A stretch of DNA of 64,000 bases from Nereocystis luetkeana. Lineage: Eukaryota > Sar > Phaeophyceae > Laminariales > Laminariaceae. Made by a program: the position numbers and the translations under genes. Below, in pieces: positions 1,814-56,466 of the stretch. Every line of letters begins with the position of its first letter. Position 1 is the first letter of the stretch. The notes beneath the pieces were generated by a model that did not search any database, had not been told where the DNA came from, and saw only the letters and a list, made by a program, of their open reading frames with translations. The stretch spans positions 10,511,601 through 10,575,600 of the forward strand of contig JARUPZ010000009.1 of assembly GCA_031213475.1 (NCBI GenBank), written 5' to 3'.

Positions 1814-1934
1814 GGGGGGCCATAGTTAATAGGACCAAATATTGTTAGTAAAAATGGTCAAATATATACCCAGGTACCTGGTAGGTTTTTTTTATGTAAT
1901 CCATGGGTATTATTAACTATGGTCCCCCGTAATA
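1814..1934. mobile_element. Fam1 MITE with micro-insertions
   Basis: The arms are clear. The centre carries CCCAGG-TA-CCTGG-TA at 1869-1883, where other copies read AAATATATAGGTTTTT without interruption. Confidence 0.88.
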
Positions 1935-4320: not shown

Positions 4321-5544
<1,224 letters not shown>

Positions 5545-5834: not shown

Positions 5835-6361
5835 TGCGGTTCGGATGTAGACATACCGCCCCTCGTCCCTTCGCGTATTGCACATCTATACGATGTGGTA
5901 AGTTCAAGTTTGCCGGTTTGAACCCAACGGATCAGCTGGGATTCACATAAGATGCACCTCCCACCCTACCGGTAATCTGGTACGTATATGACATCCTCCC
6001 TGCGGTTCGGATGTAGACATACCGCCCCTCCTTCGTGTATTGCACATATATACGATGTGGTAAGTTCAAGTTTGCGGGGTTGAACCCAACGGATCAGCTG
6101 GGATTCATATAAGATGCACCTCCCACCCTACCGGTAATCTGGTACCGGGTACGTATATGACATCCTCCCTGCGGTTCGGATGTCTACTACCGTCCCTCGT
6201 CCCTTCGCGTATGGCACATATATACGATATGATAAGTTCAAGTTTGCCGGGTTGGACCCAACGGATCAGCTGGGATTCACACAAGATGCACCTCCCACCC
6301 TACCGGTAATCTGGTACGTAAATATGTACCAGGGTACCTGGTATATAACATCCTCCCTGTG
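5835..6361 (+). repeat. three tandem copies of a ~166 bp unit
   Basis: Units begin TGCGGTTCGGATGT at 5835, 6001 and 6170 and share CAACGGATCAGCTGGGATTC. Unit 2 lacks about 10 bp near its start. Unit 2 also gains CCGGG plus TA at 6145-6151. Unit 3 gains a TACCAGGGTACCTGGTA-containing segment near 6326. The duplications allow micro-insertions to be read directly. Confidence 0.9.
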
Positions 6362-26862: not shown

Positions 26863-27034
26863 GGAGAAGTGCCTGCCATATCACCCCGGATCAGACCTAC
26901 GAAAAGGAAGGAGATGGAGAAGTAGGGCAAAGACCACAGACGGGATGGCGCAGCAAAGGGAGCGCACACTAAGAAAACCTATTAATAGTAGCTGAAACTG
27001 CCATGAAAAAATATAAGTCTGGCAGTCGTAACAC

Positions 27035-27152
27035 TATTACGGGGGACCATAGTTAATAGGACCTATGGTACACATAAAAATCTACCAAGGTATATATTTA
27101 ACCATTTCTACTAACAATATTTGGTCCTATTAACTATGTTCCCCCGTGATAG
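27035..27152. mobile_element. Fam1 MITE with micro-insertion
   Basis: Near-consensus, with CCAAGG plus TA inserted at 27085-27092 into the central CCTATATATTTAACC sequence. Confidence 0.93.
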
Positions 27153-27642
27153 TACTTGATTACAATATGGGCCGGCCAACAAGAAACCCCTATTCTGAGC
27201 AAGCGCAGGCCGTAGAACATTGTTGAGTCACCATGCGTGCTTGTTTAGCCTTTGAGCATAGACTACAGTAACTGTAGTATATACCTGGTACCGTGTGGTT
27301 GATTATTATTATTATGCTTGCCTTCCGACAATATAGCGTACAGTAGTAGATGCTGTTCCCATCTAAACCGAGTACCCGTCCGTAAGTCAGCAGTGTCTCT
27401 CATACGCTTCTCTGCCAGCCGTTTCCCAATTTCCATTCCCCGCATCATCTCATTTTAGCTACCGGAATACATATACCTGGTGTAGCTCTCGCGGGAAAAA
27501 GTGTCCAGAATTTTCTCACGTAGGGCGTCGCGCCCCTATTTTTTTAGGCTGTTCTGCTCGTCATTTTGGCTCTTTCAACGCCGGGGGGCTCTACTGGGGC
27601 TGTTGTACGGAAGAGAGCTGTCAGTACTGCTGTAGATAGTAG

Positions 27643-27751
27643 TATTACGGGGGACCATAGTTAATAGGACCTATGGTATACATAAAAACCTATATATTTA
27701 ACCATTTTTACTAACAATATTTGGTCCTATTAACTATGGTCCCCCGTAATA
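27643..27751. mobile_element. Fam1 MITE, consensus-like
   Basis: The arms form a perfect TTACGGGGGACCATAGTTAA pair with TA flanks. It is a good reference for insertion comparisons. Confidence 0.95.
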
Positions 27752-27808: not shown

Positions 27809-27908
27809 CAACCCCTTCAGGACAGCGGTCCCGTCTTGGGGACAAACTACTTAGAATTTGAGTGTTTCATCCCCAAAACGGGACTGCAGTTCTAAATGGG
27901 TGGGTTAA
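27809..27908. mobile_element. Fam2 MITE
   Basis: AACCCCTTCAGGACAGCGGT to GACTGCAGTTCTAAATGGG, moderately diverged. Confidence 0.82.
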
Positions 27909-28111: not shown

Positions 28112-28248
28112 CATTACGGGAGACCATACCAGGTAGTTAATAGGACCAAATATTGTTAGTAAAAATGGTTAAAATACATACCAGGTACCAGGTACCAGTT
28201 TTTTTTAATGTATACCATAGGTCCTATTAACTATGGTCCTCCGTAATA
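28112..28248. mobile_element. Fam1 MITE with three CCAGG-type micro-insertions
   Basis: CCAGG plus TA interrupts the left arm at 28129-28135. A tandem TACCAGGTACCAGGTACCAG lies in the centre at 28179-28198. The arms otherwise match the consensus. Confidence 0.92.
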
Positions 28249-28342
28249 GTAATCAGGACCAAATATTCTTCGTAAAAATACTGGAATATATAGTTTTTTG
28301 TATGTACAATAGGTCTTGATTACTATGGTCCTCCTGTAATAC
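28249..28342. mobile_element. Fam1-like element, truncated
   Basis: It starts at GTAATCAGGACCAAATATT, lacking the outer left arm, and ends TACTATGGTCCTCCTGTAAT. Its inner arm is AATCAGGACC/GGTCTTGATT rather than AATAGGACC, so it may be a sub-family. Confidence 0.75.
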
Positions 28343-29152: not shown

Positions 29153-29230
29153 TATATATACCAGGTATACCTGGTACAGGTATATACCTGGTACAGGTAT
29201 ATATATATATATACCTGGTATATATATGTA
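29153..29230. repeat. cluster of TACCWGGTA motifs in TA-rich DNA
   Basis: TACCAGGTA and TACCTGGTA occur in direct succession inside (TA)-rich sequence, with two TACCTGGTACAGGTATA-type segments and a further TACCTGGTA near 29213. Confidence 0.85.
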
Positions 29231-39288: not shown

Positions 39289-39967
39289 ATGGAGCTGTTC
39301 AAAGAACCTACGTGTATTGACTGGTCCCTTGTTTTTATCATGTCCTGCCATTTGTACTCGTAGTCTGGTTTGCTGAGTTTTTCTTCCCATACTACTATTA
39401 AGTAGTATGGCGTTTTTGCCTGTCGTATTCCACCCACCCATAGTATCCCCCTGGCTCAAGCACGCCAAGCCATTGCCATGCGATGTACAATGCATTCTCT
39501 CGGATACACTGGGCGTCTCTCCATGCCTCCAAAAGTTAGAATACCCCTAAAAAGCGCTGAGTTCGTTCGGCCGTGCAGTCGTTTTTCAGCTCTCTCTTGT
39601 TTCACTGGACAATGGCAATAGCTGCTAATATTAATATCAAAGTCGAACAAAATACGTACCTGGTACGTATATATTTTCGGAAGGCTCTCTCTCTCCGACC
39701 TCCACCAGATATTTCCGAGAACACCTTTGTTGTTCGGCTTTGGCAACCCCCCCGCTCCGGAGAAATTCGAGCGCTTGAAACACCATCGCAGCCCTGTGCA
39801 GAGTGTGCGCTGTTCACCGTGACGATCTATGGTAGCTCGGAGGCTGCACGCACGCGCACCGACGCTGGGATCTGCTGTGTTCGACACAGCACAACAGTCG
39901 TGTTTCCTCCCTGCATGGTGCCGGTTGGTTGCCCGCTGTGCTCGCAGTGCCCGTTAAATCGCTACTG

Positions 39968-40050
39968 TTACGGGGAACCATAGTTAATAAGACCTATGGT
40001 GTACCTGGTATATAAAAACCTACCAGGTATATATTTAACCATTTTTACTA
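39968..40050. mobile_element. truncated Fam1 MITE with two micro-insertions
   Basis: The left arm and centre are present and the right arm is missing at the start of the next copy. CCTGG plus TA (40004-40010) and CCAGG plus TA (40023-40029) interrupt sequence that is continuous in the consensus. Confidence 0.88.
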
Positions 40051-40163
40051 TTACGGGGGACCATAGTTAATACCAGGTAGGACCTATGGTATTCATAAAA
40101 ACCTATTTATTTAAGCATTTTACTAACAATATTTGGTCCTGTTAACTATGGTCCCCCGTAATA
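40049..40163. mobile_element. Fam1 MITE with CCAGG micro-insertion
   Basis: Full length. CCAGG plus TA at 40073-40079 splits the left arm sequence GTTAATAGGACC exactly at its TA. Confidence 0.94.
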
Positions 40164-40297
40164 ATAGGCGCAGATGGGCTTGATTCACCGGTGTGGGCCA
40201 GTGTGATGAGAAGTGCCGGTTGCCGCTACGGCAATGCCGGTATACTGGGCTGGCCGCACACCTGCATTGTAGAGAGGGAGGGCACGACTGCCACTAC

Positions 40298-40360: not shown

Positions 40361-40450
40361 CCCTTTAGAACCGAAGTCCCGTTTTGGGGACAAGCTGCTT
40401 GAAGTTTGAGTGGTTTGTCCCCAAAAACGGGACTGCGGTTCTGAAAGGGT
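40361..40450. mobile_element. Fam2 MITE, second in the 40.3-40.8 kb cluster
   Basis: CCCTTTAGAACCGAAGTCCC to CGGGACTGCGGTTCTGAAAG. The arms are almost intact. Confidence 0.85.
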
Positions 40451-40454
40451 TGAC

Positions 40455-40546
40455 GCTGTTAGGACCGCAGTCCCGTTTTTGCGGACAAATCACTCTGATT
40501 CTGAGTAGTTTGTGCCCAAAACGGGACCGCGGTTCTTAAAGGGGTT
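40455..40546. mobile_element. Fam2 MITE, third in cluster
   Basis: GCTGTTAGGACCGCAGTCCC to GGGACCGCGGTTCTTAAAGG. It begins 5 bp after the previous copy. Confidence 0.83.
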
Positions 40547-40550
40547 ATAA

Positions 40551-40643
40551 CCCCTTTTAGAACTGCAGTCCCGAATTGGGGGCAAACCAATCTAATTCCA
40601 AGTGATTTTTCCCCACAACGGGACCGCAATACTAAAACGGTTA
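40551..40643. mobile_element. Fam2 MITE, fourth in cluster
   Basis: CCCCTTTTAGAACTGCAGTC to GACCGCAATACTAAAACGG, with TTAA at the right. Confidence 0.83.
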
Positions 40644-45175: not shown

Positions 45176-45422
45176 ATTACGGGGGGCCGTATTAACCCTT
45201 TTAGAACCGCAGTCCCGTTTTGGGGGCAAACCAGTCAAATTTCAAGTAGTTTGTCCCCAAAACGGGACTGCGGCTCTGAAGGGGTTAAATGGGATCTACG
45301 GTACAGACAAGAACCTAAATATTTCGCTTTTTATACCTACAAAATTTGGTGGTACACACGAGCACCTATATATTTCCCTCTTTTTTCCAACAATATTTGG
45401 TCCTACTTACCATGATCCACGG
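45176..45422. mobile_element. Fam1 MITE, rearranged, containing Fam2
   Basis: TTACGGGGGGCCGTA is interrupted by Fam2 and resumes as ATGGGATCTACGGTAC. The centre is duplicated (two CCTAAATATTT/CCTATATATTT segments). The right arm is decayed to TACCATGATCCACGG. Confidence 0.72.
45192..45288. mobile_element. Fam2 MITE nested in Fam1, exact TTAA
   Basis: TTAA at 45192-45195 and 45285-45288. Removing the element and one TTAA rejoins GGCCGTATTAAATGGGA, which aligns with the Fam1 variant arm GGCCATAGTAAATAGGA. Confidence 0.93.
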
Positions 45423-45525
45423 CGGGCCATAGTAAATAGGACCTATGGTATACACGAACACCTACATATTTCCCTATTTTTACCGACAATATTTGGTCCT
45501 ATTTACTATGGTTCCCGGTAAAATA
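45423..45525. mobile_element. Fam1 MITE
   Basis: GCGGGCCATAGTAAATAGG to CTATTTACTATGGTTCCCGG. It abuts the previous copy. Confidence 0.85.
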
Positions 45526-45529
45526 GTCC

Positions 45530-46025
45530 TTCTACGTCGTACGAGTACGACTACTTTTTGTTTTTGTTTTTGTTTCTTGTCGTCTATTATCTTTGTATCT
45601 TCGCCACTCTTTTTTTCTCTCTCTCCCTCTTGCACAATGGTCTTTCTTCACGCTGGAGTCAGACCCGGGGTACTGACTGACCGAGCGGGCTCGCTGAGTG
45701 TCGAGTGGTGTCAAAAATGGGATGACTCTTGGAGAAAAGGCCGCTTCAGGGAAACAAAGGCTCGGGGCGGTGAACTGTGGTAACTTCAGATGCGGTTCGA
45801 CGAATGCACGTGCGGTGTGTTCAAACACTCCAGGTCCTCAATCTTGATGGCCTCTTACAGCAGCCAACGCCTATCGACGACGGCTTGTGACTGCAACTCG
45901 TCGATTTCAAGAACCTGCTGAACAGGTCATCTAAATGTCCCGTTACTCATAATGCGGTGTAATTAGTTGAACCGCAACCGGCGAAGCATTGACCCAATAG
46001 GCTACGTATGTCATTGTACGTACTG
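45530..46025. other. unassigned spacer
   Basis: The segment near 45680-45830 has open frames on both strands without recognisable domains. No family repeat seen. Confidence 0.4.
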
Positions 46026-46029
46026 CGTA

Positions 46030-46415
46030 TTTCTTATCAGGGTGGTCACACGTATCGCAGGCCGTCTCCTCACTGCCCCCCCCCCCCCCCCCCCCCCCGC
46101 CCCCTGCCTCCTCCGTCCTCTACCGTCCTTATCGCGAGAAGACTATGTACTATCAGCTATGTATTCTCTCGTGAAGTCGCGTCGAGTACCGCTAGATACC
46201 AACGCTATATATATGCGCTCTCAGCGGTTGATCCTTTTAATTTTCACTATCCATATTACGGGGGACCATAGTTAGTAGGACCAAATATTGTTTGTAAAAT
46301 GGTGAAATATATAGGTTTTTATGTACACCATAGGTCCTGTTAACTAGGGTCCCCCGTAATAGTAAAAGTCCCAATCTCGCTGACGGCGGGATTAGAACTT
46401 GCGTACGGTCAACCA
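46030..46415 (-). mobile_element. SINE-A-related element split by Fam1
   Basis: Reverse body blocks CCTTATCGCGAGAAGACTAT, GTGAAGTCGCGTCGAGTACC and GCTCTCAGCGGTTGATCCTT, then a Fam1 insert, then the head GACGGCGGGATTAGAACTTG. A 23-base C run at 46076-46098 lies in the body. Confidence 0.65.
46254..46361. mobile_element. Fam1 MITE nested in a SINE-A-related element
   Basis: TA on both sides of TTACGGGGGACC and GGTCCCCCGTAA. Host sequence continues on both sides. Confidence 0.93.
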
Positions 46416-46477
46416 TGATCAAATATTAAATTTTATAAAATTAATAGTACCATGCGGGGATCTTCCTATTATTGATA

Positions 46478-46574
46478 TTAACCCTTTTAGAACCGCAGTC
46501 CCGTTCTGGGGACAAACCAGTCGAATTTCAAGTAGTTTTGTCCCCAAACGGGACTGCGGTTCTAAAGGGGTTAA
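46478..46574. mobile_element. Fam2 MITE in duplication copy 1
   Basis: TTAA at 46478-46481 and 46571-46574. The empty copy has a single TTAA at the same point (CAACATTAATAGCAGG, about 47021-47036). This is direct proof of the TTAA duplication. Confidence 0.96.
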
Positions 46575-46599
46575 TAGCAAGCCATCAGAGGGTAACCGT

Positions 46600-56302: not shown

Positions 56303-56345
56303 CCATCGAGACCCAGCAAGTGGCGTTGTCCTTGCTATTAATAGC

Positions 56346-56466
56346 ACGGGGGACTGTAGTTGATAGGACCTAATATTGTTAGTAAAAACGGTTAAATATA
56401 TACCTGGTAGGTTTTTTATGTATACCAGAGGTCCTACCAGTATTAACTACGGTCCCCCCGTAATAG
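56346..56466. mobile_element. Fam1 MITE with two micro-insertions
   Basis: ACGGGGGACTGTAGTTGATA to CTACGGTCCCCCCGTAA. CCTGG plus TA lies at 56403-56409 and CCAG plus TA at 56437-56442, each splitting consensus sequence at a TA. TATTAATA lies just upstream at 56336. Confidence 0.92.

Follow-up and report, generated by a model that had tools for sequence, protein, structure and literature searches.

TACC(A/T)GGTA words in the genome of Nereocystis luetkeana as probable excision footprints of a TA-targeting transposon

The genome of Nereocystis luetkeana (465,085,209 bases in 1,987 contigs) carries the word TACCWGGTA 182,395 times, against 1,744 occurrences of the reversed word in the same 465 Mb, these numbers being counts of copies and not of events, inflated by arrays and repeat families. 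The word is probably the excision footprint of a cut-and-paste transposon that targets TA and whose ends would begin with 5'-CCAGG(G). This reading draws on a window of 64,000 nucleotides (the whole stretch of DNA analysed, G000:C9:10511601-10575600), which together with 20 stretches of 10 kb forms the main counting sample (264 kb), on a motif-blind indel scan covering 309 kb, and on genome-wide word counts. The window is rich in MITE copies and in long microsatellites, the longest dinucleotide run among those listed for it being a perfect AC x570 at 4403-5542, and neither tRNA genes nor Rfam matches were found in it. A second MITE-like family occurs at many places of the window (e.g., 27818-27905, 40365-40627 and 45190-46576) with ends (TTAA)CCCTTTTAGAACCGCAGTCCCGTTTTGGGGACAAA; its TTAA and CCCTTT start hint at piggyBac. 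Five of ten large sampled ORFs have Pfam matches, including IPT/TIG, ephrin-receptor-like and reverse-transcriptase domains, as befits a eukaryote.

Gains at TA in Fam1 copies and across the genome

The origin of the word can be followed in copies of the MITE family Fam1, where the preliminary description had cited a series of micro-insertions. All of them are present in the sequence, each at its verified position, and they are given here in window coordinates, located by alignment to the copy at 27643 unless otherwise stated; a strand is assigned to the reference copy only.

27643..27751, plus strand: uninterrupted Fam1 reference MITE, bounded by TA, with terminal repeat TTACGGGGGACC
40004..40010: gain of CCTGG+TA, left (truncated) Fam1 copy
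40023..40029: gain of CCAGG+TA, left (truncated) Fam1 copy
40073..40079: gain of CCAGG+TA, right full Fam1 copy (40049-40163), empty homologue at 27640-27708
28129..28135: gain of CCAGG+TA, Fam1 copy 28112-28250
28181..28194: tandem gain of CCAGG+TA and CCAGG+TA, Fam1 copy 28112-28250
56403..56409: gain of CCTGG+TA, Fam1 copy 56345-56466
56437..56442: four-base variant CCAG+TA, Fam1 copy 56345-56466
1869..1883: tandem of CCCAGG+TA and CCTGG+TA, Fam1 copy 1812-1936
27085..27092: six-base variant CCAAGG+TA, Fam1 copy 27034-27154

Two further features of the window belong with these:

6327..6343: TACCAGGGTACCTGGTA, a six-base CCAGGG scar fused to a canonical scar
29159..29220: four TACCWGGTA clustered in 62 bases of TA-rich DNA

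When the units are omitted, the alignment score against the 27643 copy rises and the number of gap runs falls in six of six Fam1 copies. Identity changes from 65/82 to 64/68 columns in copy 39966-40049, from 104/116 to 104/109 in copy 40047-40165 and from 104/136 to 104/115 in copy 28112-28250; with units and variant units omitted, it changes from 98/120 to 98/107 in copy 56345-56466, from 97/122 to 97/107 in copy 1812-1936 and from 107/119 to 106/111 in copy 27034-27154. The improvement requires omission of the variants CCAAGG, CCAG and CCCAGG, fully in copy 27034-27154 and partly in two other copies. The earlier statement that the copies without their units match the uninterrupted one therefore stands as a better fit throughout, but not as an exact match, since gap runs drop to zero in two of the six copies and persist in the other four, which also bear other indels. 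The right copy of the pair at 39966-40165 has seemingly been inserted into the left one, the rest of which is missing, and scars are found in both.

The same gains emerge when no motif is assumed. Among 627 distinct insertion sites in the motif-blind scan, TA is duplicated in 11 of the 32 gains of 7 bp, and 8 of these 11 are CCAGGTA or CCTGGTA; further TA-duplicating gains of the scan include CCGGGTA, CCAAGGTA, CCAGTA and CCCAGGTA, one each. Whether gains fall preferentially at TA had been named as a decisive question for the footprint idea, and the idea survives it, since both in the Fam1 copies and in the scan the gains sit at TA and consist of inserted bases plus a duplicated TA. BLAST recovered an empty homologue for no more than 13 of some 140 scars, compared with 34 of 1,029 other TA-N5-TA words, a control that is uncleaned; the raw figure for scars was 15 of 142 rows, from which a self-match of L001 and one site doubled in the overlapping L005 and L006 were dropped.

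The word had also been called common throughout the window, and the comparison with composition bears this out: 56 copies occur there, against a mean of 0.48 and a maximum of 2 in 100 dinucleotide shuffles, and the 264-kb sample holds 117, against 2.9 expected from a second-order Markov model. Moreover, 56 of the 161 CCWGG in the window stand between two TAs, while any other pair of flanks accounts for at most three. Per 1,000 TA, Fam1-like stretches (n = 46) carry 12.8 scars (11 in 859 TA, the window supplying 8 of the 11) and the sample as a whole 7.2 (117 in 16,162 TA), densities within a factor of two of each other, which indicates that insertion at TA is frequent enough to account for the words outside Fam1. 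Density ranges from 0 to 17.8 among the 20 stretches, with 14.0 for the window, and no scar lies in the 297 TA of three stretches of Pfam-bearing reading frame, a number of TA too small to prove depletion. Neighbours of the scar with a single mismatch number 125 against 65 expected, an excess of about twofold that implies a mean decay of roughly 5% per base or less. It had been suggested that footprints this dense would record large-scale past transposition, and the density of scars is sufficient for that. Two local features concern TA statistics in themselves: a (CTA)n-rich array with a recurring TACCAGTG/TACCAGGG word at L023:3900-9550, which distorts them, and an excess of TACGTA (316 against 187 expected on both strands of the window and L016-L035).

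Length variants, target motif and the proposed excision chemistry

According to the proposed mechanism, the transposon would insert at TA and duplicate it, and its terminal inverted repeats would begin with 5'-CCAGG(G). On excision, the five terminal bases of each end would stay on the flanks as 3' overhangs (CCAGG-3'). These would pair with each other everywhere but at the centre (C:G, C:G, an A:A mismatch, G:C and G:C; four positions of five) and then be ligated; with the A:A mismatch resolved to A or T, the site would have gained CC(A/T)GG and one TA. Overhangs of six bases would give CCAGGG, or CCCTGG when read on the complementary strand, and those of four bases CCAG. Each scar would retain two TAs and thus be open to further hits, and neutral scars would become fixed at the rate at which they form. 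The scars may have been made over a long time by parent elements that are now scarce or lost, which would be no obstacle, since even moderate numbers of active elements could produce this many within the lifetime of the scars.

The spectrum of footprint lengths, in which 5 bp dominates and 6 and 4 bp are minor, speaks to this chemistry. TACCWGGGTA occurs 13,000 times genome-wide against 771 for its control, and among the first 100 listed copies 93 are CCAGGG and 7 CCTGGG; without eight rows of one array and seven of a 317-bp repeat described below, the ratio is still 78:7 (78 of 85, P about 3e-16). That array (G000:C1:1304145-1308362, mostly of 528-bp period, carrying TACCAGGGTA and eight listed TACCWGGGTA rows) is an old scar amplified along with its surroundings. 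Within the sample, TACCAGGGTA is found at 12 loci whose flanks differ and TACCCAGGTA at 3. CCAG is enriched 3-fold and CCTG 1.6-fold, in the direction expected from CCAG-3'. The preponderance of CCAGGG argues against one-base slippage in a finished CCWGG, which would yield equal numbers of both forms. Paired CCAGG-3' overhangs have the single A:A mismatch at their centre and can give CCAGG or CCTGG, whereas in CCAGGG-3' overhangs the outer two bases of each side pair and two centre positions are mismatched, giving CCAGGG or CCCTGG but not CCTGGG. The variant spectrum thus suggests that the parent ends should begin with 5'-CCAGGG and that the usual stagger would be five bases. The pattern of CCWGG, CCAGGG and CCAG fits paired 3' overhangs, and TACCAGG edges are found in the one copy read of a 317-bp candidate.

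Other short words between TAs were considered alongside. CCATG and TCAGG show enrichment too, again with flanks resembling the target, and may be further scars or products of decay. In the window and sampled loci, TATCAGGTA, at 11 single sites, and TACCATGTA, at 12, likewise exceed expectation and have flanks like those of scars; the latter two are possibly scars left by a relative whose ends are TCAGG, or products of decay at one position. CCAGTG was rejected as a scar, 7 of its 8 copies (0.4 expected) lying in one minisatellite in L023, and so was CCGG, which is enriched 3.4-fold yet has flanks without the target motif.

This motif was read from the flanks of 119 single scars, oriented with the A-form on top, with 1,216 other TA-N5-TA words as control. 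W at -7 has a frequency of 0.80 on the left and 0.80 on the right (control 0.56), A at -6 of 0.44 and 0.49 on the two sides (control 0.28), and a purine at -1 of 0.82 and 0.87 (control 0.65), while T at -1 is rare (0.03 and 0.04). The profile around the empty TA is therefore two-fold symmetric, and the equality of its sides points to a symmetric, two-ended enzyme, in agreement with the reading of the scars as the work of a TA-targeting transposase. Tc1-like elements prefer AYATATRT as their TA target, with A and purine favoured just outside, and positions -3 to -1 of the scars (A, pyrimidine, A/G) resemble this preference. Fam1 ends instead have C before TA, at -1, in 0.62 of cases (n = 39), so the scars do not come from the Fam1 enzyme.

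An improbable alternative is that the scars are micro-insertions made without any transposon, in which TA would be cut with a two-base stagger, a polymerase would copy CCAG, CCAGG or CCAGGG from a template, and the ends would be joined, the 7-bp unit being the insert. Such a process would agree with the lack of a proven parent element and with the appearance of the scars as nested prefixes of one strand, visible in the unequal enrichment of CCAG and CCTG and in the 93:7 ratio among listed six-base copies. However, it leaves unaccounted for the dominance of five bases, the overhang length that pairs best with itself, and the target motif, equal on both sides, is that of a two-ended enzyme; moreover, we know of no enzyme for templated micro-insertion of this kind at TA.

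The variants also bear on the chemistry originally put forward, namely a Tc1/mariner footprint of an element whose ends start with CCA or CCT, cut with a three-base stagger and joined over one mismatch. This scheme yields CC(A/T)GG with the right centre, and a three-base stagger has been described in Sleeping Beauty and in mariner (PMC7827188), but the scheme predicts the full fill-in CCATGG as a by-product, of which there is one site in 264 kb, and joining over one mismatch predicts neither the dominance of five bases nor the one-sided excess of CCAGGG over CCTGGG. It is rated a little below templated insertion, at a low probability. The footprint idea is thus retained from the preliminary description, and sticky ends of five, sometimes six, bases of CCAGGG fit better than the CCA/CCT chemistry.

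Tandem units

Tandem pairs number 15,917 genome-wide, against 2 for the control: 4,522 are CCAGG-TA-CCTGG, 1,856 are CCTGG-TA-CCAGG and 9,539 have the same orientation. Pairs of mixed orientation, which slippage cannot make, are 40% of the total, or about 36% after correction for the 317-bp repeat; this family contributes 7 of 35 listed convergent pairs and so inflates the convergent count, which is about 3,618 when corrected. Convergent (AT) pairs are 2.44 times as numerous as TA pairs, or 1.95 times after correction. The target preference predicts a ratio of 1.68 (bootstrap 1.22-2.49), because TACCAGG before TA makes a better half-site than TACCTGG does; the footprint TACCAGG itself has the favoured base at -7 (T), -6 (A), -3 (A) and -1 (purine).

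It had been argued that the two TAs kept by each unit allow it to be hit again and so explain the tandems. Their occurrence in both orientations agrees with this, but their number does not follow from it, since reinsertion at the average rate would give about 2,480 tandems, about six-fold fewer than seen, and pairs of the same orientation make up 60-64% instead of the 50% expected of independent insertions. Local hopping, an uneven density of targets and some slippage could each contribute to the excess. This leaves some room for the self-propagating 7-bp unit that had also been raised, although hopping, uneven targets or slippage could suffice. A search of viral_contigs with the triple unit gave 0 matches, which is weakly informative. 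Among the points that weigh against the footprint reading are the length of five bases, the six-fold tandem excess, the 7 CCTGGG among 100 listed six-base copies and the share of same-orientation pairs.

It is very unlikely that the word is simply a microsatellite with a 7-bp CCWGGTA unit, grown by slippage or unequal exchange. The abundance of tandem pairs and the 60% of them in one orientation are what such growth would favour, but single units sit at TAs with a common target motif, the 182,395 units far outnumber the tandem pairs instead of forming arrays of one orientation, 36-40% of tandems have opposite centres, and exactly 7 bases separate neighbouring scars in 6 of 55 spacings in the window, so that slippage explains part of the tandems at most. 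Least probable of all is a binding or modification site made by mutation and kept by function, for which the abundant, near-palindromic word with CCWGG inside would be suited (CCWGG is a methyltransferase site in other organisms, and the abundant HIP1 site of cyanobacteria offers a comparison), but which is contradicted by the origin of the word as a precise gain of CCWGG+TA in MITE copies, by the concentration of CCWGG between TAs in the window and by the twofold excess of one-base neighbours.

Candidate parents, related systems and significance

The excision reading calls for a parent element, and a Tc1/mariner transposase had been proposed as its mark. In this genome, DDE_3 (PF13358) had 0 matches among 30 scored candidates, with controls responding in 3 of 14 genomes; the mariner Transposase_1 model also gave 0 matches, a weakly informative result, as its controls were silent. 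DDE_1, the domain of the pogo group, which likewise targets TA, has at least 28 matches in the genome, but at the 2 of 28 loci read there are neither notable TA-flanked inverted repeats nor CCAGG ends beside them.

The strongest pointer to the parent is a repeat, about 317 bp long, both edges of which carry inward TACCAGG words; it was found at 7 of 35 listed places on contig C1, among them C1:1475098-1475411 and C1:2622152-2622463. It came to light because, among the listed places, TACCAGGG lies 294-307 bases from 7 of the 35 convergent tandems, always facing inward, where the expected total of pairs of TACCAGGG and a tandem less than 1 kb apart is about 1.2; none was found within 1 kb of the 41 same-orientation and 11 divergent listed pairs. 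One copy was read:

L007:1501-1817, equal to G000:C1:239145-239461: copy of the 317-bp repeat, starting with TACCAGGTACCTGGTACAGTTTTACGGGAGT and with inward TACCAGGGTAAATTATACGACGAGT at the other end

Beyond the words, the likeness of its two ends is weak, being equalled by 108 of 6,000 random stretches; the longest reading frame in the copy spans only 73 codons, and the copy folds no better than shuffles (z -0.26). About 900 copies are extrapolated from the listed places, and a second copy was not found in the sample. The repeat may be either a MITE with TA-CCAGG ends or a dispersed repeat that carries two old scars.

In a wider search, 7,540 TACCAGGG ends had V as the following base and B as the final one, with 93 strings listed. 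A word TACCAGGGCCACGCTTATGACTTTCAATATAGCTT recurs with few changes in 7 of these 93 (e.g., C1:1848909, 2013715 and 2649460) and has perhaps several hundred copies genome-wide. A stretch of 2,209 bp at C1:2557159-2559367 has identical 35-base inverted ends starting with TACCAGGG, the end word being single-copy in the genome. A paired-end pattern of 213-273 bp was matched 33 times, where the density of the words would predict about 21, with a class of 240-248 bp (12 of 33) that is weakly above chance when the two matches that suggested it are removed (10 of 31, P 0.011). The reversed controls of these searches (42,683 for TACCAGGG ends and 319 for the paired-end pattern) exceed the counts and were left unused, since GGGACCAT, the word in reverse, occurs within the Fam1 end.

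Several candidates were rejected as parents. Fam1 has ends TTACGGGGGACC and favours C before TA, and CCWGG is not expected on its excision. The TACCAGGGCCCAGCCCTA family (178 ends with at most one mismatch) has seven listed pairs in minus-then-plus order, 0.89-1.02 kb apart, so that CCAGGG points outward from the flanks into the intervening space; it is probably another inverted-repeat element, with pairs about 0.9 kb apart at C2:6159148-6160051, C5:3045214-3046170 and C6:8779911-8780852, for example. Likewise, the sequences that follow TACCWGG in the sample, 131 of which do not start with TA, contain no family like an element end, although this filter dropped those starting with TA and hence hid the 317-bp repeat. 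Finally, a group of four loci with ATGATACAAAC has sequence common to both sides of the word and is not an element end.

Among known systems, ciliate IESs are TA-bounded like the scars and of Tc1-like origin, but they are excised exactly, leaving one TA, whereas a 5-bp scar plus TA is left here. The closest resemblance in mode of action is to Sleeping Beauty and Tc1, with which the scars share the duplication of TA, the preference for A and purine just outside it, and a scar of odd length, nearly palindromic around an A or T, the shape that two identical 3' overhangs with a single A:A mismatch should leave. For Sleeping Beauty, the passages concerned give the footprint as TAC(A/T)GTA (PMC3432063) and describe three-base 3' overhangs that become the footprint and chromosomal donors that hop locally (PMC7827188). 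The scars differ in having five bases instead of three, in a further target preference six and seven bases out, and in their number, about 182,000 in one genome, with a parent that is not proven. Tc1/mariner footprints are stated as 2-4 bp in the relevant part of PMC7913693, whereas here 5 bp is dominant. Owing to this length and to the DDE_3 result, the element is not filed as a member of Tc1/mariner but is regarded as one that works alike. Stowaway elements also target TA. Excisions of Stowaway MITEs, natural elements as well, have been traced in Triticeae genomes (PMC1925063), and there the elements are known, whereas here the scars, in hundreds of thousands, are the main evidence. A survey of Ectocarpus transposons describes 17 Mariner-Tc1 families, and its main text has neither 'footprint' nor 'excision' (PMC12477816). 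No report of five-base footprints, of genome-wide scars of this kind or of TACCWGGTA was found in the open-access literature.

More tentatively, the parent could represent an undescribed group of TA-targeting transposases whose cut lies five bases in from the element's ends and whose scar restores one half of the preferred target, a possibility that we hold to be doubtful. Since TACCAGG followed by TA fits W-A-N-N-A-N-R before TA, excision would create a better landing site beside the scar. If true, this would make the growth of scar arrays self-reinforcing and would explain the six-fold tandem excess. A five-base stagger would widen the known range of TA-targeting transposases.

With about 180,000 copies of TACC(A/T)GGTA, past transposition could be counted site by site without the parent in hand. 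Because neutral scars should build up as fast as they form, a recognisable scar acts as a transposition clock that can outlive the element. From one genome, these marks would provide a density map of landing and leaving, and would show which targets a natural transposon prefers and how its excision sites are repaired. Moreover, many 7-bp indels, which shift the frame when they fall in genes, can share one mechanical source.
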